A stretch of 64,000 nt of DNA from Rubrivivax gelatinosus (GTDB taxonomy: Bacteria > Pseudomonadota > Gammaproteobacteria > Burkholderiales > Burkholderiaceae_C). Below are positions 866 through 15,545 of this stretch, piece by piece. The position numbers and the translations under genes were made by a program. The stretch spans positions 181,288 through 245,287 of the forward strand of contig NZ_SLXD01000008.1 in the NCBI RefSeq assembly GCF_004340905.1. Direction: 5' to 3'. The first letter of the stretch is position 1, and each line of letters begins with the position of its first letter. Below the pieces are notes generated by a model that saw only the letters and a program-made list of their open reading frames with translations, was not told the DNA's origin and did not search any database.

Positions 866-1261
866 ATGAACCGCGCGACGATCGTCGAACTGCTGCAGTG
901 CCGCCTGCCCGGCTTGCTGGCGGTCTATGCCTTCGGCAGCCGCATCGACGGGACGGCGGGCCCGGCCAGCGATCTGGACCTGGCGGTGCTCGTCGCCGGT
1001 TATGCCGATCCGCTGGCCTTGTTCGAGCTGTCCGGCGAACTGGCCGACCTTGCCGGCTGCGACGTCGACCTGCTCGACCTTCGTGCCGCTTCGACCGTCA
1101 TGCAGTACCGCGTGATCACGACCGGCGAACGGTGGTGGGCGGCCGACACGCGCGCCGGCCTGTTCGAGGCCGCGGTGCTGAGCGAGAAGACGGCGCTCGA
1201 CACGGCACGGGCCGGGCTGCTGCAGGACATCCGCCGAACGGGGACCATCCATGGCCGATGA
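866..1261 (+). CDS. mntA: MntA-like nucleotidyltransferase, antitoxin of a HEPN/MNT pair
   Basis: This 131-residue protein carries the minimal nucleotidyltransferase signature GS-X10-DxD (Gly24-Ser25, Asp36, Asp38) and a third acidic position in 'VDLLDL' (Asp68). In characterised MNT-HEPN modules the MntA enzyme silences the HEPN toxin by transferring AMP groups to a toxin tyrosine. The ATG at 866 was chosen because family members start just before the first helix; an upstream in-frame ATG at 821 would add 15 residues unlike the family. Its stop overlaps the next gene by 11 bases, so the two are translationally coupled in the order antitoxin then toxin. Function is inferred from motif and pairing. 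Confidence 0.85.
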   Translation: MNRATIVELLQCRLPGLLAVYAFGSRIDGTAGPASDLDLAVLVAGYADPLALFELSGELADLAGCDVDLLDLRAASTVMQYRVITTGERWWAADTRAGLFEAAVLSEKTALDTARAGLLQDIRRTGTIHGR

Positions 1262-1679
1262 CGTGTTGCTGAACAAGGCGGCGGTGATCGAGCGCTGCGT
1301 CGCCCGCGCACGCGAGGAGTACGCCGCCAACCCGGCGGGCTTCGCCACCGACTACACGCGCCAGGACGCCGCGATCCTGAACATCCAGCGGGCCTGCGAG
1401 GCGGCCCTCGACATGGGCCAGCATCTGATCCGCCGCGAACGGCTCGGCGTGCCGCAGAGTGCGCGCGACGTCTTCGCCCTGCTGGCCCGGGCGGGCTGGA
1501 TCGACGCCGGTCTGGCCGACGCGCTCAAGCGCATGGTCGGCTTCCGCAACATCGCGGTGCACGACTATCAGGCGCTGCAACTGCCGATCACGGTCGCGAT
1601 CATCACCTCGCACCTCGACGAGTTCCTGCAATACAGCCAGGCCCTGTTGCTGCGCGACGGTGGGGGCGTGGCCGGCTGA
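1251..1679 (+). CDS. hepT: HepT-like HEPN RNase toxin
   Basis: The 142-residue, mostly helical protein contains the HEPN catalytic motif RX4HXY as Arg99, His104, Tyr106 ('RNIAVHDY'), which in this family forms the RNase site; the tyrosine is the residue adenylylated by MntA in studied pairs. Length matches HepT proteins (about 130-150 residues). It starts inside the end of mntA (ATG at 1251, mntA stop at 1259-1261), a typical layout for this type VII-like toxin-antitoxin module. Nothing is truncated and all motif residues are present, so the toxin should be active. The target RNA cannot be told from sequence. Confidence 0.85.
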   Translation: MADDVLLNKAAVIERCVARAREEYAANPAGFATDYTRQDAAILNIQRACEAALDMGQHLIRRERLGVPQSARDVFALLARAGWIDAGLADALKRMVGFRNIAVHDYQALQLPITVAIITSHLDEFLQYSQALLLRDGGGVAG

Positions 1680-5719: not shown

Positions 5720-5831
5720 TCGCGGCCGGCGTGCCCGCCACCGGCGGGGCGCGGCGTTTGCCTGGGGACGGCCCTGCGCGCCTGGCGCGTGCCCTCCACC
5801 CCAGCCCGCCGCCGCGGGCCGAAAGCCGCCC

Positions 5832-6164
5832 ATGTCCCCCGACTCCGGCCGTTATGCCCTCGACGTCTGCCTCGCCTGCATCGAGGCCTGCGAACGCTGC
5901 ACCGCCGCTGGCCTGAAGGAGCGCGAGGTCGCGCTGATGGCGCGCTGCATCGCGCTGGACCTCGACTGCGCCGCCGCCTGCCGCCTGGTGGCGGCCTACC
6001 TGATGCGCGGCAGCGACTACCTGCCCCCGGCCGCCGCGCTGTGCGCCGACGTCTGCCGCCGCTGCGCCGCCGAATGCGAGCGCCACGACCACGACCACTG
6101 CCGCCGCTGCGCCGACGCCTGCCGGCGCTGCGCCGAGGCGTGTTCGGCGATGGCCTCGGCCTGA
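5832..6164 (+). CDS. four-helix-bundle copper-storage-like protein (Csp/DUF326)
   Basis: A 110-residue protein with 16 cysteines, nearly all in CxxC or CxxxC spacing along four predicted helices, plus a His-rich turn 'ERHDHDHC'. This is the pattern of the Csp family of cytosolic and exported copper stores, in which the cysteines line the inside of a helical bundle and bind many Cu(I) ions. No Tat or Sec signal is present, so it resembles the cytosolic Csp3 type. It has its own start 112 bases after the YkgJ-like gene and ends 4 bases from the stop of the convergent macro-like gene. Copper binding is inferred from the family. Confidence 0.85.
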   Translation: MSPDSGRYALDVCLACIEACERCTAAGLKEREVALMARCIALDLDCAAACRLVAAYLMRGSDYLPPAAALCADVCRRCAAECERHDHDHCRRCADACRRCAEACSAMASA

Positions 6165-6168
6165 AGCC

Positions 6169-7179
6169 TCAGCCGACCTCGTCCGCCAGGTCCAGCAGCG
6201 CCTTCGACGGTGGCCCGTAGCTGACGAGGCGCAGGTCCAGCCCGGCCGCGGCGGGCGACGCGAAGGCGCGGCGCATCGCCGCAGTGATCCAGGCCTCGTC
6301 GTTGCCGAAGGCGCCGCCGCCCAGCTGCGTCAGCAGCACCCGCGGCGGTTTTCCGGCGGCGGCGGCCAGGCGCGCTTCCCAGAGCGTCGCTTCGTAGGCC
6401 GCTTCGAGCACCAGCGTCGCGAAACGCGCCCAGGGCGCGCCGCGGTGGCGCGAGTAGGCGACCGGCAGCGCCGAGCAGAAAGCCTGCGAAACCACCGGCC
6501 CCGGCGGCGTGGCGACGTCGGTCACCTCCACGTCGCGGTGCACGCCGATCGCCAGCCGCGTGCGCAGCGCATCCAGCCCGGCATCGTCCAGCGCCGCCAG
6601 ATGGGCGTCGATCGCGGCCAGGCCGTCGGCGCTGGGCAGCGCGTAGCCGTTGCGCATCGCCCAGAGTGCTTCGCGCGGCCGGCCGGTGGCCGCCGCCAGC
6701 GCCTCGCCCAGGCCGGCCAGGGCGTCGAGCTGGCGCGTGGCGGTCTGGCCGGGGCGGCCGTCGACCGGCACGAAGTAGTGGCGCACGAGGGTCGCCGCGC
6801 CGCAGGCCATCGCGCAGGCCGGGCCTTGCGTGCGGTCGTGTTCGTAGCGCGTCACGCCTTCGTCGGGCGTGACCTCGGGGCCGATCATCTCCAGAAGGTT
6901 GAACTGCGACGCCACCTGGAACAGCGCGCCGGCCAGCGCCGGGTCGCGGTGCAGCGCGCGCACGTCGCCCTGCACGACGCGGCAGCGGGGCGGCGGCGCC
7001 GGCGGCAAGGCCGCGGCGCGCCCGCGCAGCGTGCCCAGCGTGACGAGTTCCAGCTCGCCGACGGCCCAGCTGCGGCCGGCTTCGGGCGCGTGCAGCCGGC
7101 CGTCGCGCCAGTGCAGGCGCCGGCGCAGCTCGTCGGCGGCGGGCTCGGCAAAGCCGGTCAGGCGGCTGAACCAGTCCAT
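6169..7179 (-). CDS. macro/PARG-like domain protein coupled to a sirtuin
   Basis: A 336-residue soluble protein with no standard name that I know. Features suggest a divergent macrodomain or poly(ADP-ribose)-glycohydrolase fold: 'VVQGDV' at 68-73 (like the macrodomain GDI/V strand), 'QFNLLEM' at 92-98, a conserved block 'RYEHDRTQGPACAMACG', 'SQAFCSALPVAYS' at 231-243, and 'GGGAFGNDEAWI' near 287-298, which resembles the PARG GCGAFGGD segment. The ATG lies two bases after the TGA of the upstream sirtuin gene, so the two are co-translated. If the fold call is right, it would bind or remove ADP-ribose. The fold is inference; the conserved blocks are seen. Confidence 0.65.
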   Translation of the reverse strand: MDWFSRLTGFAEPAADELRRRLHWRDGRLHAPEAGRSWAVGELELVTLGTLRGRAAALPPAPPPRCRVVQGDVRALHRDPALAGALFQVASQFNLLEMIGPEVTPDEGVTRYEHDRTQGPACAMACGAATLVRHYFVPVDGRPGQTATRQLDALAGLGEALAAATGRPREALWAMRNGYALPSADGLAAIDAHLAALDDAGLDALRTRLAIGVHRDVEVTDVATPPGPVVSQAFCSALPVAYSRHRGAPWARFATLVLEAAYEATLWEARLAAAAGKPPRVLLTQLGGGAFGNDEAWITAAMRRAFASPAAAGLDLRLVSYGPPSKALLDLADEVG

Positions 7180-7181
7180 GC

Positions 7182-8015
7182 TCAGCCGGCGGCCAGCGCG
7201 GCGTCGATCGCCGCCAGCCCTTGGAGCGCGCCGCAGGCCAGGCCGACGTGCAGCGCGCCAGGCACCGCGGGCTCGCGCGGGTTCAGCCGCAGCAGCCGGG
7301 CGTCGTGGGCGTGCAGCAGATGCTGGCCGAAACGCCGCACCGAGGGCACCGCCGTGCCGGCGCCGATCTCGACGACGACCGGGCGGCGCACGCCTTTCAG
7401 CCACTGCATCAGCGTGCCGATCTGGGCCTCGGTGCGGGCCGCCAGCCACTGCGCGTCGCCGAACATCAGGATGTTGGGCCGCGCCAGCGCGCCGCAGCGC
7501 GGGCAGCGCGGCAGCTCGCCGCGCCAGCGGCAGGCGGCGGTGTCGACGTCGACCACCAGATCGTCGGCCGGCCACGGCGCCTCGCTGCAGGGGCGTGTGC
7601 ACTGCAGCCAGTGGATCGAGCCGTGGCATTCGGCGACACGTTCGGCGGCGATGCCGGCACGCTGGAACTGGCCGTCGACGTTGCTCGTGAAGACGAAGCC
7701 GCCGGCCGGCGCACGCGCCATCCAGCGTTCCAGGATCGCGAAGCCGGCGTGCGGCACGGTGCGCCGGTACAGATCCAGCCGGTGGCCGTAGAAGCCCCAG
7801 GCCAGCGCCGGGTCGCGCTCGAAGCGCTCGGGGCAGGCGATCTCGGTGAAGTGCAGCCCGGCGGCGCCCAGCGCCGGGTAGGCGGTCCAGAAGCCGGCGT
7901 CGCCGCGGAAGTCGGGCAGGCCCGAATCGACGCCGATGCCGGCGCCGGCGGCGACGATCACCGCGTCGGCCTGGTCGATCAGGTCGGCGGCGTGGGCGAG
8001 AGCGCTGGGATCCAT
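7182..8015 (-). CDS. SIR2-family NAD-dependent deacylase or ADP-ribosyltransferase
   Basis: A 277-residue sirtuin. It shows the NAD-binding 'GAGIGVDSGLPDFRG' (24-38), 'TSNVDGQF' (110-117, normally TQNxDGLH), the general-base His131 in 'CHGS', zinc ligands Cys139, Cys143, Cys171 and Cys174, and 'RPNILMFGD' and 'GAGT' later on. Changes from the deacetylase consensus (GAGIG rather than GAGIS, TSNVDGQF, MFGD rather than xFGE) place it outside the CobB group. Sirtuins use NAD to deacylate proteins or to transfer ADP-ribose. It is the first gene of a two-gene leftward operon and is divergent from the aminotransferase, only 36 bases away. Confidence 0.88.
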   Translation of the reverse strand: MDPSALAHAADLIDQADAVIVAAGAGIGVDSGLPDFRGDAGFWTAYPALGAAGLHFTEIACPERFERDPALAWGFYGHRLDLYRRTVPHAGFAILERWMARAPAGGFVFTSNVDGQFQRAGIAAERVAECHGSIHWLQCTRPCSEAPWPADDLVVDVDTAACRWRGELPRCPRCGALARPNILMFGDAQWLAARTEAQIGTLMQWLKGVRRPVVVEIGAGTAVPSVRRFGQHLLHAHDARLLRLNPREPAVPGALHVGLACGALQGLAAIDAALAAG

Positions 8016-8051
8016 CAAGTTCTGCGGGCGAGCGGGCGGGAGAATAGCCCG

Positions 8052-9221
8052 ATGATCTCCGAGCCCGCCGACCGCGCCCACGGCATCCTGCCGCTGTACG
8101 GCCAGCCCGAGCGTGTGCTGGCGCGCGCCCGCGGCTGCCGCCTCGTCGATGCGCAGGGGCGGCGTTACGTCGACTTCGAGTCCGGCGTCTGGGCTGCCAA
8201 CCTGGGCCATGCGCATCCGGCGGTGAACCGGGCGATCCGGCGTTCGCTGACGACGGTGATGCACCAGGGCTACGCCTTCCGCAGCGCCGAGGCCGAGATG
8301 CTGGCCGCACACCTGGCGCGGCTGCACGGCCTGCCGGGCGCGCGCAGCGTCTTCCTGTCTTCGGGCTCGGAGGCCGTCAACCTGGGGCTGCAGATCGCGA
8401 TGCAGCTCTCGGGCCGGCGGCGTTTCGTGCGCCTGGACAGCAGCTATCTGTCGGCCTTCGGCTACGGCCGCCTGGCGGCCGACAACGACCAGCGCATCGA
8501 CCTGCGCTGCGACGACCTGGCCGCCGTCGACGCCGTGCCCTGGCACGAGGCGGCGGCGCTGGTGCTGGAGGTCGGCGGTGCGTCGCTGGAGGTGGTGCGT
8601 TTCCCGCACGAGGACTTCGTCGCGCGCGCCGTCGACGCCGCACGCCGCGCCGGCGCCTTCATCGTCTGCAACGAGGTGACGACCGGCTTCGGCCGCACCG
8701 GGCGCTGGTTCGGCTACCAGCACTACGGCCTGCTGCCGCAGCTCGTGGCCTGCGGCAAGGCGCTGGGCAACGGCTACCCGGTCAGTGCGCTGACGGTCGA
8801 CGCCGAGGTGGCGGCGGCGCTGGACACGCAGCCGCTGCGTTATGCCCAGTCGCACCAGAACGACCCCGGCGGCTGCGCCGCGGCCCTGGCCGTCATCGCG
8901 GCGCTGGAAGCCGGCGACTGGGTGGCGCGCGGCGCGGCCGTCGGCGAGCACTTCGCCGCACGCCTGGCCGCGCTGCGGCAGCGCCGGCCGCAGCAGGTGC
9001 TGGCCGTGCGTGGCCGCGGGCTGATGCTGGCGCTGCAACTGGCCGACGAGGCGCTGGCGCAGCGGGTCGCGCGCCGGCTCTTCGAGCGCGGCCAGGTCGT
9101 CGGCCAGCGCGGTGCCAGCCTGCGTTTCATGCCGCCGCTGACCGTCACGAAGGCGATGGTCGACACGCTGGTGCGCGAGATCGGCCATGCGCTAGCCGCC
9201 GAACCAGGAGTCCCGAGATGA
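8052..9221 (+). CDS. class-III PLP-dependent aminotransferase family protein
   Basis: A 389-residue fold-type I enzyme with the class-III layout: phosphate-binding 'SSGSEAVN' near 103-110, 'NEVTTGFGRTGRWFG' at 207-221 and the Schiff-base Lys236 in 'CGKALGNGYP'. The Asp that normally holds the pyridine nitrogen (DEV/DEx) is replaced by Asn207, an oddity that could alter the reaction; some uncharacterised family members seem to share it. Length is slightly below 4-aminobutyrate or acetylornithine aminotransferases (400-430). Its TGA overlaps the ATG of the next gene (ATGA), so an acetyltransferase is co-translated. Amino donor and product are unknown. Confidence 0.8.
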   Translation: MISEPADRAHGILPLYGQPERVLARARGCRLVDAQGRRYVDFESGVWAANLGHAHPAVNRAIRRSLTTVMHQGYAFRSAEAEMLAAHLARLHGLPGARSVFLSSGSEAVNLGLQIAMQLSGRRRFVRLDSSYLSAFGYGRLAADNDQRIDLRCDDLAAVDAVPWHEAAALVLEVGGASLEVVRFPHEDFVARAVDAARRAGAFIVCNEVTTGFGRTGRWFGYQHYGLLPQLVACGKALGNGYPVSALTVDAEVAAALDTQPLRYAQSHQNDPGGCAAALAVIAALEAGDWVARGAAVGEHFAARLAALRQRRPQQVLAVRGRGLMLALQLADEALAQRVARRLFERGQVVGQRGASLRFMPPLTVTKAMVDTLVREIGHALAAEPGVPR

Positions 9222-9781
9222 CCGGAACGATGCCGTCCCAGCCGGTGATCGAGGCCCGCCAGCTGCGGCTGCGGCCTTTCGTCGCTGGCGACGCACCCGA
9301 GGTCCAGCGCCTGGCCGGCGACCGGCGCGTCGCCGAGACGACGCTGGCGATCCCGCACCCCTATCCCGACGGCGCCGCCGAGGCCTGGATCGCGACGCAC
9401 CCGGTCGGCTGGCTGGCCGGGCGCGAGATCAGCTACGCGATCGAACGCCGGTGCGACGCCGCGCTGGTCGGCGCGATCGCGCTGCTCAACGTCAGTGCCG
9501 CGCATGCGCACGCCGAGGTCGGCTACTGGATCGGCCACGACTACTGGGGCCAGGGCCTCGCCACCGAAGCGACGCGTGCGCTGCTCGACTTCGCCGAGAA
9601 CGAACTCGGCCTGACGCGTATCGCCGGCCGCTGCCTGGCGCGCAACCCGGCCTCGGCGCGCGTGATGCAGAAAGCCGGCCTGCGGCCCGAGGGCTGCATG
9701 GTGCGCCACCTCGAGATCGGCGGCGTCTACGAAGACGTGCTGCTGTTCGGGCGGGTTTCGCCGTCTAGGCTGGCGCCCTGA
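9218..9781 (+). CDS. GNAT acetyltransferase, RimJ/RimL type
   Basis: A 187-residue GNAT protein with 'RLRPF' at the start of the fold, 'GYWIGHDYWGQGLATEA' for the acetyl-CoA pyrophosphate loop, and the C-terminal 'NPASARVMQKAGL' helix typical of RimJ/RimL enzymes that acetylate protein N-termini or small amines. The ATG at 9218 overlaps the stop of the aminotransferase gene and has AGGAG eight bases upstream; an ATG at 9230 is possible but lacks this. The 3' end overlaps the convergent nucleosidase gene by 17 bases. Coupling to an aminotransferase suggests that an amino compound may be the acceptor, which is inference. Confidence 0.8.
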   Translation: MTGTMPSQPVIEARQLRLRPFVAGDAPEVQRLAGDRRVAETTLAIPHPYPDGAAEAWIATHPVGWLAGREISYAIERRCDAALVGAIALLNVSAAHAHAEVGYWIGHDYWGQGLATEATRALLDFAENELGLTRIAGRCLARNPASARVMQKAGLRPEGCMVRHLEIGGVYEDVLLFGRVSPSRLAP

Positions 9782-14905: not shown

Positions 14906-15511
14906 ATGAGCTGCCTGATCTTCCTGGCGAAACTCTTCGCCTTCATCCTGGCCGTCGTGCTGATGCTGGCCCTGCTGATCAATGTCGTCAGCGCGATCGT
15001 CACGGTGGCCGCCTGGCTCAATGAGCGCCTCAGGAGGCCGGCGCGGCGCACACGCCGCCAGCTGATGGAAGCCAACGGCTACTACCGCGGTCTGCGTTAC
15101 GTCGACCTTCCCGAGCGCTTGCGGCGCGCGGCGTCGATATCGGGTGGGTCGTCGGGCCGCACGCGCTACACCTGGGGCGTGCCCGATGATCCGATGTACC
15201 TGGAGTGCGACGCCCAGGGCGTCATCGTCGACCACATGCCGCCGCGTGCGCCGCCGGACCTGCTGCGCCATTTCTTCGAGACCCAGCCGCTGGACGGCTG
15301 GACGCTGGAGCGCATCGAGCACGCGATCGGCCGGCCCACCGACAGCATCGACTGCGATCGTGGCCGGTGGATCTACTGGTGGCGGCTGCCGGACAAGGCG
15401 CGCATCGAGCTGTTGTGGATCGACGGCAGTTGGCGGGCCGAGCTGTTCGACGGCGTGCACCGCCATCGGCTGGCGCCCCCGGCAGGAATCGAACCTGCAT
15501 CTGAGACTTAG
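14906..15511 (+). CDS. membrane-anchored protein of unknown function overlapping tRNA-Arg
   Basis: A 201-residue reading frame with one strong N-terminal membrane helix ('LAKLFAFILAVVLMLALLINVV') and a soluble C-terminal part rich in Trp and Arg. The last dozen residues ('PPAGIEPASET') are encoded by the strand opposite the tRNA-Arg gene, and the stop lies inside it, so this end is set by the tRNA sequence and may not be selected as protein. Codon use in the body matches the neighbours. I recognise no family. The gene might be real with a tRNA-derived tail, or an older longer gene may have been cut here. Confidence 0.5.
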   Translation: MSCLIFLAKLFAFILAVVLMLALLINVVSAIVTVAAWLNERLRRPARRTRRQLMEANGYYRGLRYVDLPERLRRAASISGGSSGRTRYTWGVPDDPMYLECDAQGVIVDHMPPRAPPDLLRHFFETQPLDGWTLERIEHAIGRPTDSIDCDRGRWIYWWRLPDKARIELLWIDGSWRAELFDGVHRHRLAPPAGIEPASET

Positions 15512-15545
15512 GAGGTCCCCGTTCTATCCATTGAACTACGGCGGC
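15471..15545 (-). tRNA. tRNA-Arg, anticodon CCU
   Basis: A 75-nt cloverleaf with encoded CCA. D arm GTTC/GAAC, anticodon stem GGGAC/GTCTC with loop CTCCTAA (anticodon CCT), and T arm GCAGG-TTCGATT-CCTGC are all intact. The acceptor stem reads GCCGCCG on the 5' side and CGGGGGC on the 3' side, which leaves a G-G clash at pair 4-69; in related bacteria I would expect GCCCCCG. The 5' side overlaps the last codons and TAG stop of tamB, and the 3' half overlaps the end of the convergent membrane-anchored gene. It decodes AGG, a rare codon in this GC-rich genome. Confidence 0.9.

Follow-up and report, generated by a model that had tools for sequence, protein, structure and literature searches.

A sirtuin gene beside a gene for a PARG-like macrodomain protein in Rubrivivax gelatinosus: a candidate pair for making and removing an ADP-ribose adduct

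Operons that join a sirtuin to a macrodomain protein have already been described (PMC4518038, PMC11490716), and a sirtuin-Macro pair has been predicted in actinobacterial phages (PMC9503650). Class M sirtuins are defined by replacement of the catalytic HG by QG, and in SirTM, ADP-ribosyl transfer was lost when His replaced the catalytic Gln (PMC4518038). Another set of systems is centered on ADP-ribosylglycohydrolase (ARG), comes with phosphatases and with regulators of the WYL or Nudix type, sometimes also with Macro or NADAR genes, and has been proposed to undo phage ADP-ribosylation (PMC9503650, section 3.8). DUF2362 (C12ORF4) has been announced as a further Macro-like family (PMC6500376). 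In this study, we analyzed a stretch of 64,000 nucleotides from Rubrivivax gelatinosus (contig NZ_SLXD01000008.1; "the window" means this whole stretch). On its minus strand, the window encodes a 277-residue sirtuin, P0002 (positions 7182..8015; Pfam SIR2, 1.1e-19), and, directly downstream, a 336-residue protein, P0001 (6169..7179), predicted to be a PARG-like macrodomain protein from a structure model, its matches among solved structures, and motif counts. As a preliminary description of this DNA had stated, two bases (7180..7181, minus strand; junction TGA-GC-ATG) separate the sirtuin stop codon from the ATG of P0001, a gap across which the two genes may be translationally coupled. We tentatively favor the reading that P0002 and P0001 are the NAD-dependent maker and the remover of one ADP-ribose adduct, which we regard as possible and somewhat short of probable. 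The preliminary description knew of no system with this exact makeup, and searches limited to open-licence papers likewise listed none with a title or abstract opening on the P0001 family or on such a pair.

The preliminary description had also proposed a macrodomain/PARG fold for P0001, citing among other segments GDV and GGGAFGND. Both are present (residues 71 to 73 and 287 to 294, respectively), and fold prediction followed by a structure search returned PARG first and macrodomains thereafter. The AlphaFold2 model, built from a 48-row alignment, has a mean pLDDT of 94.8. Its top match among solved structures was the bacterial PARG 3sih (Z 17.7; root mean square deviation [rmsd] 3.8; 241 aligned residues), with 5zdb at Z 17.3 and DrPARG matches at Z 15.7 to 17.3. 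The PARG matches span 222 to 241 residues at 12 to 16% identity and are followed by YmdB and by viral and other macrodomains at Z about 13; of the 50 structural matches listed, none was a MavL structure. A sequence-profile search of P0001 against solved structures found no macrodomain, and fold comparison alone revealed the likeness. Family profiles had no match in Pfam, NCBIfam, or PADLOC (E up to 1), nor did P0001 match the PHROGs (E up to 0.01). The model thus suggests that P0001 is a macrodomain protein of the PARG-like class, apparently one without a name so far. The open reading frame does not reflect chance, because homologues occur in 19 of 148 genomes (the window genome and its relatives; E up to 0.001), with three of these carriers (G005, G040, and G046) holding fragments or a weak match only, and because the best named relative, in Rubrivivax benzoatilyticus JA2, is 95% identical.

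Two loops stand out in the alignment. The first, QxASQFNxLEM...GxxxYxxDxTQGP, was found in 48/48 rows, and the diphosphate-loop motif TxLGGGAFxN in 46/48; an invariant first loop together with a conserved diphosphate loop is expected of an active site. Under the motif definitions of PMC10951314, the PARG motif GGGx(6-8)QEE and the MavL motif WDxx[SA]xPGN[DE] were each present in 0/48 rows, and the MacroD motif was detected in two rows, neither of them P0001. P0001 also lacks Cx4HxC and Nx6GG[VLI]. Two acidic residues of the alignment, E97 and D115, are invariant (48/48) and are candidate catalytic residues on the strength of this conservation. We infer that P0001 is a hydrolase rather than a mere binder of ADP-ribose.

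The sirtuin was said in the preliminary description to depart from the standard motifs, which proved partly correct. In P0002, GAGxS reads GAGIG and a GAG loop takes the place of GTSxxVxP, whereas His131, TSNVD, DFRG, and four cysteines of the zinc type (139, 143, 171, and 174) are retained. P0002 belongs to a clade whose signature, in a 21-row alignment, is AGAGxGxDSGxPDFRG plus an ExGAG loop plus YxxR. All 21 rows carry ExGAG, YxxR, T[SQ]N[VI]D, and the catalytic HG (H131-G132 in P0002), while none carries QG at that position, GTSxxVxP, or the class M motif GVGx[NT]TP. Assignment of P0002 to class M (SirTM) was therefore rejected, since HG stands in place of QG and the class motif is absent. 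In a phylogenetic tree, the P0002 clade was separated at 100/100 from the rows that we label CobB-like, that is, the sirtuin rows outside this clade, and members from phage contigs were nested within it.

The P0002 model (pLDDT 91.0, lowest around residues 31 to 60) was nearest to Mfs1 (8rsn; Z 25.1, rmsd 3.0, 250 aligned residues), with SpySirTM (5a3a; Z 24.5, rmsd 3.1, 268 aligned) and SIRT5 (4f56; Z 23.6) close behind. By this model, the P0002 fold lies about equally near to class M and to the deacylases. In sequence-profile comparison, deacylases scored higher. Searches of phage sequences gave two weak matches to P0002 in phage records and none with P0002 as a single query against viral_contigs; with the alignment as the query, 20 loci were detected in viral_contigs. 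On four phage contigs (L173, L175, L176, and L177), sirtuins of the P0002 clade adjoin glutaredoxin-like genes, and three of the four also carry ribonucleotide reductase-like genes beside the sirtuin (all named by eye).

We propose that the pair is a small operon. In the favored sequence of events, P0002 would first use NAD+ to place ADP-ribose on a macromolecule or to release it as O-acyl-ADP-ribose. P0001 would then bind this adduct and cleave it, thereby acting on the product of its own sirtuin. The features of the pair pull toward both chemistries: the retained His and YxxR favor deacylation, and the macrodomain partner and the fold favor ADP-ribosyl transfer. Any macromolecular target could be toxin-antitoxin-like or regulatory. 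The preliminary description suggested that the pair could write and erase ADP-ribose on a target; a sirtuin that retains the His of deacylases might just as well supply the macrodomain with O-acyl-ADP-ribose. YxxR is a mark of SIRT5-like acyl specificity. One alternative is a deacylation cycle, in which P0002 is a class III-like lysine deacylase, P0001 clears the O-acyl-ADP-ribose, and a nearby GNAT protein may acetylate the substrate. The catalytic His, TxNxD, zinc-type Cys, and the invariant YxxR fit such a cycle, as do the deacylases that head the sequence matches of P0002; a GNAT gene lies near the pair in the window, beside the sirtuin in genome G062, and after a sirtuin of the same clade in locus L126. 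However, GNAT genes are common in general. Some macrodomains are known to act on O-acyl-ADP-ribose (PMC9503650). Set against the cycle is the distribution of the two partners: sirtuins were matched in 69 of the 148 genomes versus 19 for the P0001 family, so most sirtuins do without it. On balance, we consider the deacylation cycle unlikely.

How often do sirtuins accompany the P0001 family? The preliminary description treated the pair as a module and made proximity of homologues to a sirtuin a point to check. A neighborhood survey with six sirtuin queries against 94 nonredundant macrodomain loci (1.12 Mb) found five loci with a sirtuin: two from this genus (L004 and L027), one from Variovorax (L067), one from a Rhodobacteraceae metagenome-assembled genome (L063), and one from a Caballeronia plasmid (L024). 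Homologues are thus sometimes near a sirtuin, and the reading as a module is partly supported, in that the two genes are adjacent in four genomes, all of the same genus and including the window genome. It is not the usual arrangement of the family: among genome_contigs alone, a sirtuin was present in the flanks of 3 of 73 nonredundant macrodomain loci, one of these being from this genus.

The linked loci differ in layout. In Variovorax, the sirtuin gene is directly upstream of the macrodomain gene and overlaps it by 44 bases. In the Rhodobacteraceae genome, the macrodomain gene is followed after 91 bases by a broken 69-residue sirtuin fragment and 3.5 kb downstream by an intact sirtuin, which is 48% identical to the fragment. 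The surrounding island (L063:2344-10545) includes genes for a WYL-type regulator, a DSP-type phosphatase, the macrodomain protein, the sirtuin fragment, a metallophosphatase-type protein, and the intact sirtuin. On the Caballeronia plasmid, the macrodomain and sirtuin genes are convergent and 1.8 kb apart. In the tree, the Variovorax and Rhodobacteraceae sirtuins fell among the CobB-like rows and those of the window and Caballeronia in the other clade; therefore, two kinds of sirtuin came to lie near the P0001 family. Two sirtuins outside the genus were observed in 0.955 Mb versus 0.11 to 0.29 expected (P = 0.006 to 0.034, the expected number resting on a sirtuin density estimated by eye). This recurrent proximity favors a functional link, although the unlinked state is the rule. 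A plasmid of Sphaerotilus sulfidivorans (L147:595-6470) carries in one row genes for a WYL protein, an AAA ATPase, a sirtuin of the P0002 clade, a MavL-family macrodomain protein (PF24754, 3.9e-121), and a DSP-type phosphatase; a relative of MavL thus occurs alongside a sirtuin in an organism other than Legionella. A comparison of profile against single sequence gave nothing significant for homology between P0001 and this MavL-family protein, and a search for PF24754 in the 148 genomes had no match, with controls likewise unmatched, so that absence is not shown.

Across the P0001 family, the commonest neighbor was a DSP-type phosphatase, which occurred within five genes in 24 of 104 clustered loci; these loci include near-duplicates, without which the count was 21/94, and nine loci had been removed by hand beforehand. 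In 19 of the 24, the phosphatase gene is directly upstream of the macrodomain gene on the same strand. WYL-type regulators formed a cluster in 10 of the 104 loci and calcineurin-like phosphatases in 6, again within five genes. All of these counts are approximate because the gene caller loses genes, the window's sirtuin among them, to long false open reading frames in GC-rich DNA. A Pfam scan of 129 of 175 immediate neighbors (hand-picked from 150, plus the L096 gene, picked for its known interest) matched PTP-SAK 18 times, WYL 4 times, and NUDIX, DUF1810, and Metallophos twice each. As a control, the scan was repeated on 129 of 228 neighbors at a distance of four or five genes, which were filtered by length and sampled at random; phosphatase models were not among the 25 commonest (smallest count, 2). 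In L096, an ARG gene lies 2 bp upstream of the macrodomain gene. We know of no name for the macrodomain-phosphatase module, which is present in L005, L028, L043, L052, L085, L092, and other loci. Its phosphatase gene is usually directly upstream of the macrodomain gene and in some cases convergent with it.

These neighbors bear on the main rival explanation, in which P0001 is a stand-alone protective eraser of ADP-ribose set on host molecules by the foreign transferases of toxins, phages, or plasmids, and the sirtuin is incidental or accessory. The neighbors of P0001 relatives recall the ARG-centered set described in section 3.8 of PMC9503650, bacterial PARGs protect Escherichia coli from an RNA-ADP-ribosylating toxin (PMC11833690), and, as detailed below, the family is patchy and plasmid borne. 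In contrast, the window gene lacks ARG-type neighbors, and a sirtuin adjoins it in four genomes. We judge the eraser with an incidental sirtuin to be rather unlikely. The phosphatases also touch on a third alternative, RNA-end repair, in which the sirtuin would remove 2'-phosphates in the manner of KptA, and P0001 and a phosphatase would process ADP-ribose phosphates. Section 3.7.3 of PMC9503650 puts forward such a role for a clade of phage sirtuins, and the DSP-type neighbor of P0001 relatives matches Pfam PTP-SAK (in L028 also Tc-R-P and CDKN3). The sirtuin of phage rV5, a named example of the proposal's second type, instead groups with the CobB-like rows, on their side of a 100/99 split, with a very long branch that makes its placement unsure. 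Moreover, the 25 most frequent of the 106 families found next to P0001 relatives do not include RNA ligase, KptA, or 2H. RNA-end repair appears very unlikely. Membership of P0002 in the phage RNA-repair sirtuin clade, suggested at first by its match to PHROG 2162, was rejected, since CobB-like rows match this PHROG as well and the rV5 sirtuin groups elsewhere, on its long branch.

Returning to the favored pairing of maker and remover, we compared the distribution and selective constraint of the two genes. The P0002 clade (>50% identity) was present in 22 of the 148 genomes (a count from the match list), and both families occurred together in 8 (Fisher P = 0.0018, uncorrected for kinship); once the four linked genomes were removed, P rose to 0.096. 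In G007, G032, G039, and G077, both families are present on separate contigs. The ratio of nonsynonymous to synonymous substitution rates (dN/dS) was 0.17 to 0.41 for the 336-residue gene and 0.32 to 0.50 for the sirtuin gene (four pairwise comparisons each), indicating purifying selection on both, weaker on the sirtuin.

Several observations weigh against the favored pairing. P0002 carries His where SirTM has Gln, the change that cost SirTM its ADP-ribosyl transfer. When P0001 is aligned by hand with a bacterial PARG, it has QGP where the PARG helix begins with QEE; hydrolysis by P0001 is thus not assured, since these are the catalytic glutamates of PARG. No sirtuin was found at 70 of the 73 nonredundant genome_contigs macrodomain loci (flanks up to 8 kb), and 43 of 48 loci of the P0002 clade had no P0001 relative nearby (flanks often 1.5 kb), the remaining five being four loci from this genus and one on the Caballeronia plasmid. 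The lower selective constraint on the sirtuin than on the macrodomain gene points in the same direction.

The genes around the pair were then compared. Divergent from the sirtuin on the plus strand, with 36 bases between the two starts, is a class III aminotransferase gene (8052..9221; Pfam Aminotran_3, 2.3e-63), followed by a GNAT acetyltransferase gene (9218..9781, plus; Acetyltransf_3, 1.6e-33). The convergent flank on the other side encodes a Csp1/DUF326-like Cys-rich protein (5832..6164, plus; DUF326, 2e-11), which matches TIGR04401 at 1.6e-9, under that profile's cutoff. None of these three flanking genes encodes a GcvH-like carrier or lipoate ligase, in line with the preliminary description, which held the carrier to be absent (the search covered these genes and not the whole genome). 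Among relatives of the same genus, the gap between the sirtuin and macrodomain genes is two bases in L002 and L003 and 20 bases in L004. By tblastn positions, the aminotransferase is in the same stretch as the pair in all four genomes, and in G062, the GNAT gene is directly beside the sirtuin start, not after the aminotransferase. In L115 and L116, a different gene replaces the Csp1/DUF326-like flank; the pair was kept across species while the downstream flank changed. A simple scan of positions 5800 to 8400 found no promoter- or terminator-like sites at the pair, and an RNA-family scan of the window detected a single RNA, a tRNA at 15474-15545, and nothing at the pair. Elsewhere in the window (866-1676), a nucleotidyltransferase (Polbeta) gene adjoins a HepT-like gene, a likely MntA/HepT toxin-antitoxin pair.

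In a wider genome collection, at least 546 stretches encode a P0001 relative (the search gave at least 589 candidates, of which 80 loci were kept for study). Relatives were detected in 9 of 300 genomes of the order, 7 of 398 of the phylum, and 336 plasmid records (259 Klebsiella and 58 Escherichia), 288 of the latter typed as conjugative; most of the annotated plasmid rows listed read "hypothetical protein." The P0001 family is a patchy accessory gene. On three IncF-type stretches from Citrobacter and E. coli, the relative lies downstream of traI, and on two Klebsiella plasmid stretches, its surroundings differ from this arrangement (L025, L026, L181, L182, and L183 together). A tblastn search of 50,697 phage records with P0001 had no match. 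A Foldseek comparison of the P0001 model with BFVD matched proteins of giant viruses, Yasminevirus (A0A5K0UBT0) and Bodo saltans virus (A0A2H4UVR4 and A0A2H4UUF0), at TM scores of 0.84 to 0.89 on the query and 28 to 30% identity. These matches are far better than those to solved structures, and the family thus probably reaches giant viruses. Klosneuvirus encodes a more distant structural relative.

If the P0001 family is catalytic, it would add to ADP-ribose biology a class of eraser that the profile libraries searched have missed. The Rubrivivax pair would then provide a simple system of only two genes, one of which may encode the maker of the substrate, and hence a route to that substrate. 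In its boldest form, the proposal makes P0001 the founding member of another class of catalytic macrodomains. This class would be marked by QxASQFNxLEM...GxxxYxxDxTQGP and a QxxCxAxP segment, would have a linkage specificity of its own, and would be common to giant viruses, bacteria, and conjugative plasmids. Together with the non-class-M sirtuin clade, it would make up an on-off switch of sirtuin and macrodomain that evolved independently and is the second of its kind; we hold the proposal to be doubtful.

Compared with the described systems, the pair resembles SirTM/Zn-Macro operons in the adjacency of its genes and in the closeness of the P0002 model to Mfs1 and SpySirTM, with SIRT5 not far behind. 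It differs in that P0002 has HG instead of QG and lacks GVGx[NT]TP, and in that P0001 is nearest to PARG, not MacroD-type proteins, and has no Cx4HxC zinc loop. The macrodomain linkage seen for SirTM is present for P0002 and is mostly missing at loci of its clade outside the genus. P0001 shares with bacterial PARG (TIGR02452/DUF2263; TcPARG and DrPARG) its predicted fold and a GAFGND-type loop, as in the L159 PARG. Unlike these proteins, it has neither the QEE motif nor a TIGR02452 profile match, and identity is low, as given above. With the arginine-specific MavL/DUF4804 macrodomains (PMC10951314), it has in common a PARG-related fold and a noncanonical catalytic loop, although the P0001 family lacks the MavL catalytic motif. 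Like the ARG-centered systems (PMC9503650, section 3.8), P0001 relatives adjoin DSP-type phosphatases, WYL regulators, calcineurin-like phosphatases, and, once, ARG. In contrast to those systems, the macrodomain and not ARG is central, and the window supplies a sirtuin partner, the absence of a sirtuin having been their search criterion; ARG, phosphatase, and WYL or Nudix genes were not found among the scanned genes flanking the window pair. The giant-virus proteins are probably of the same family as P0001 but are longer, and one is annotated as RING-finger containing. Sirtuin-macrodomain pairs are known, and the Rubrivivax pair is built from other members of both families.

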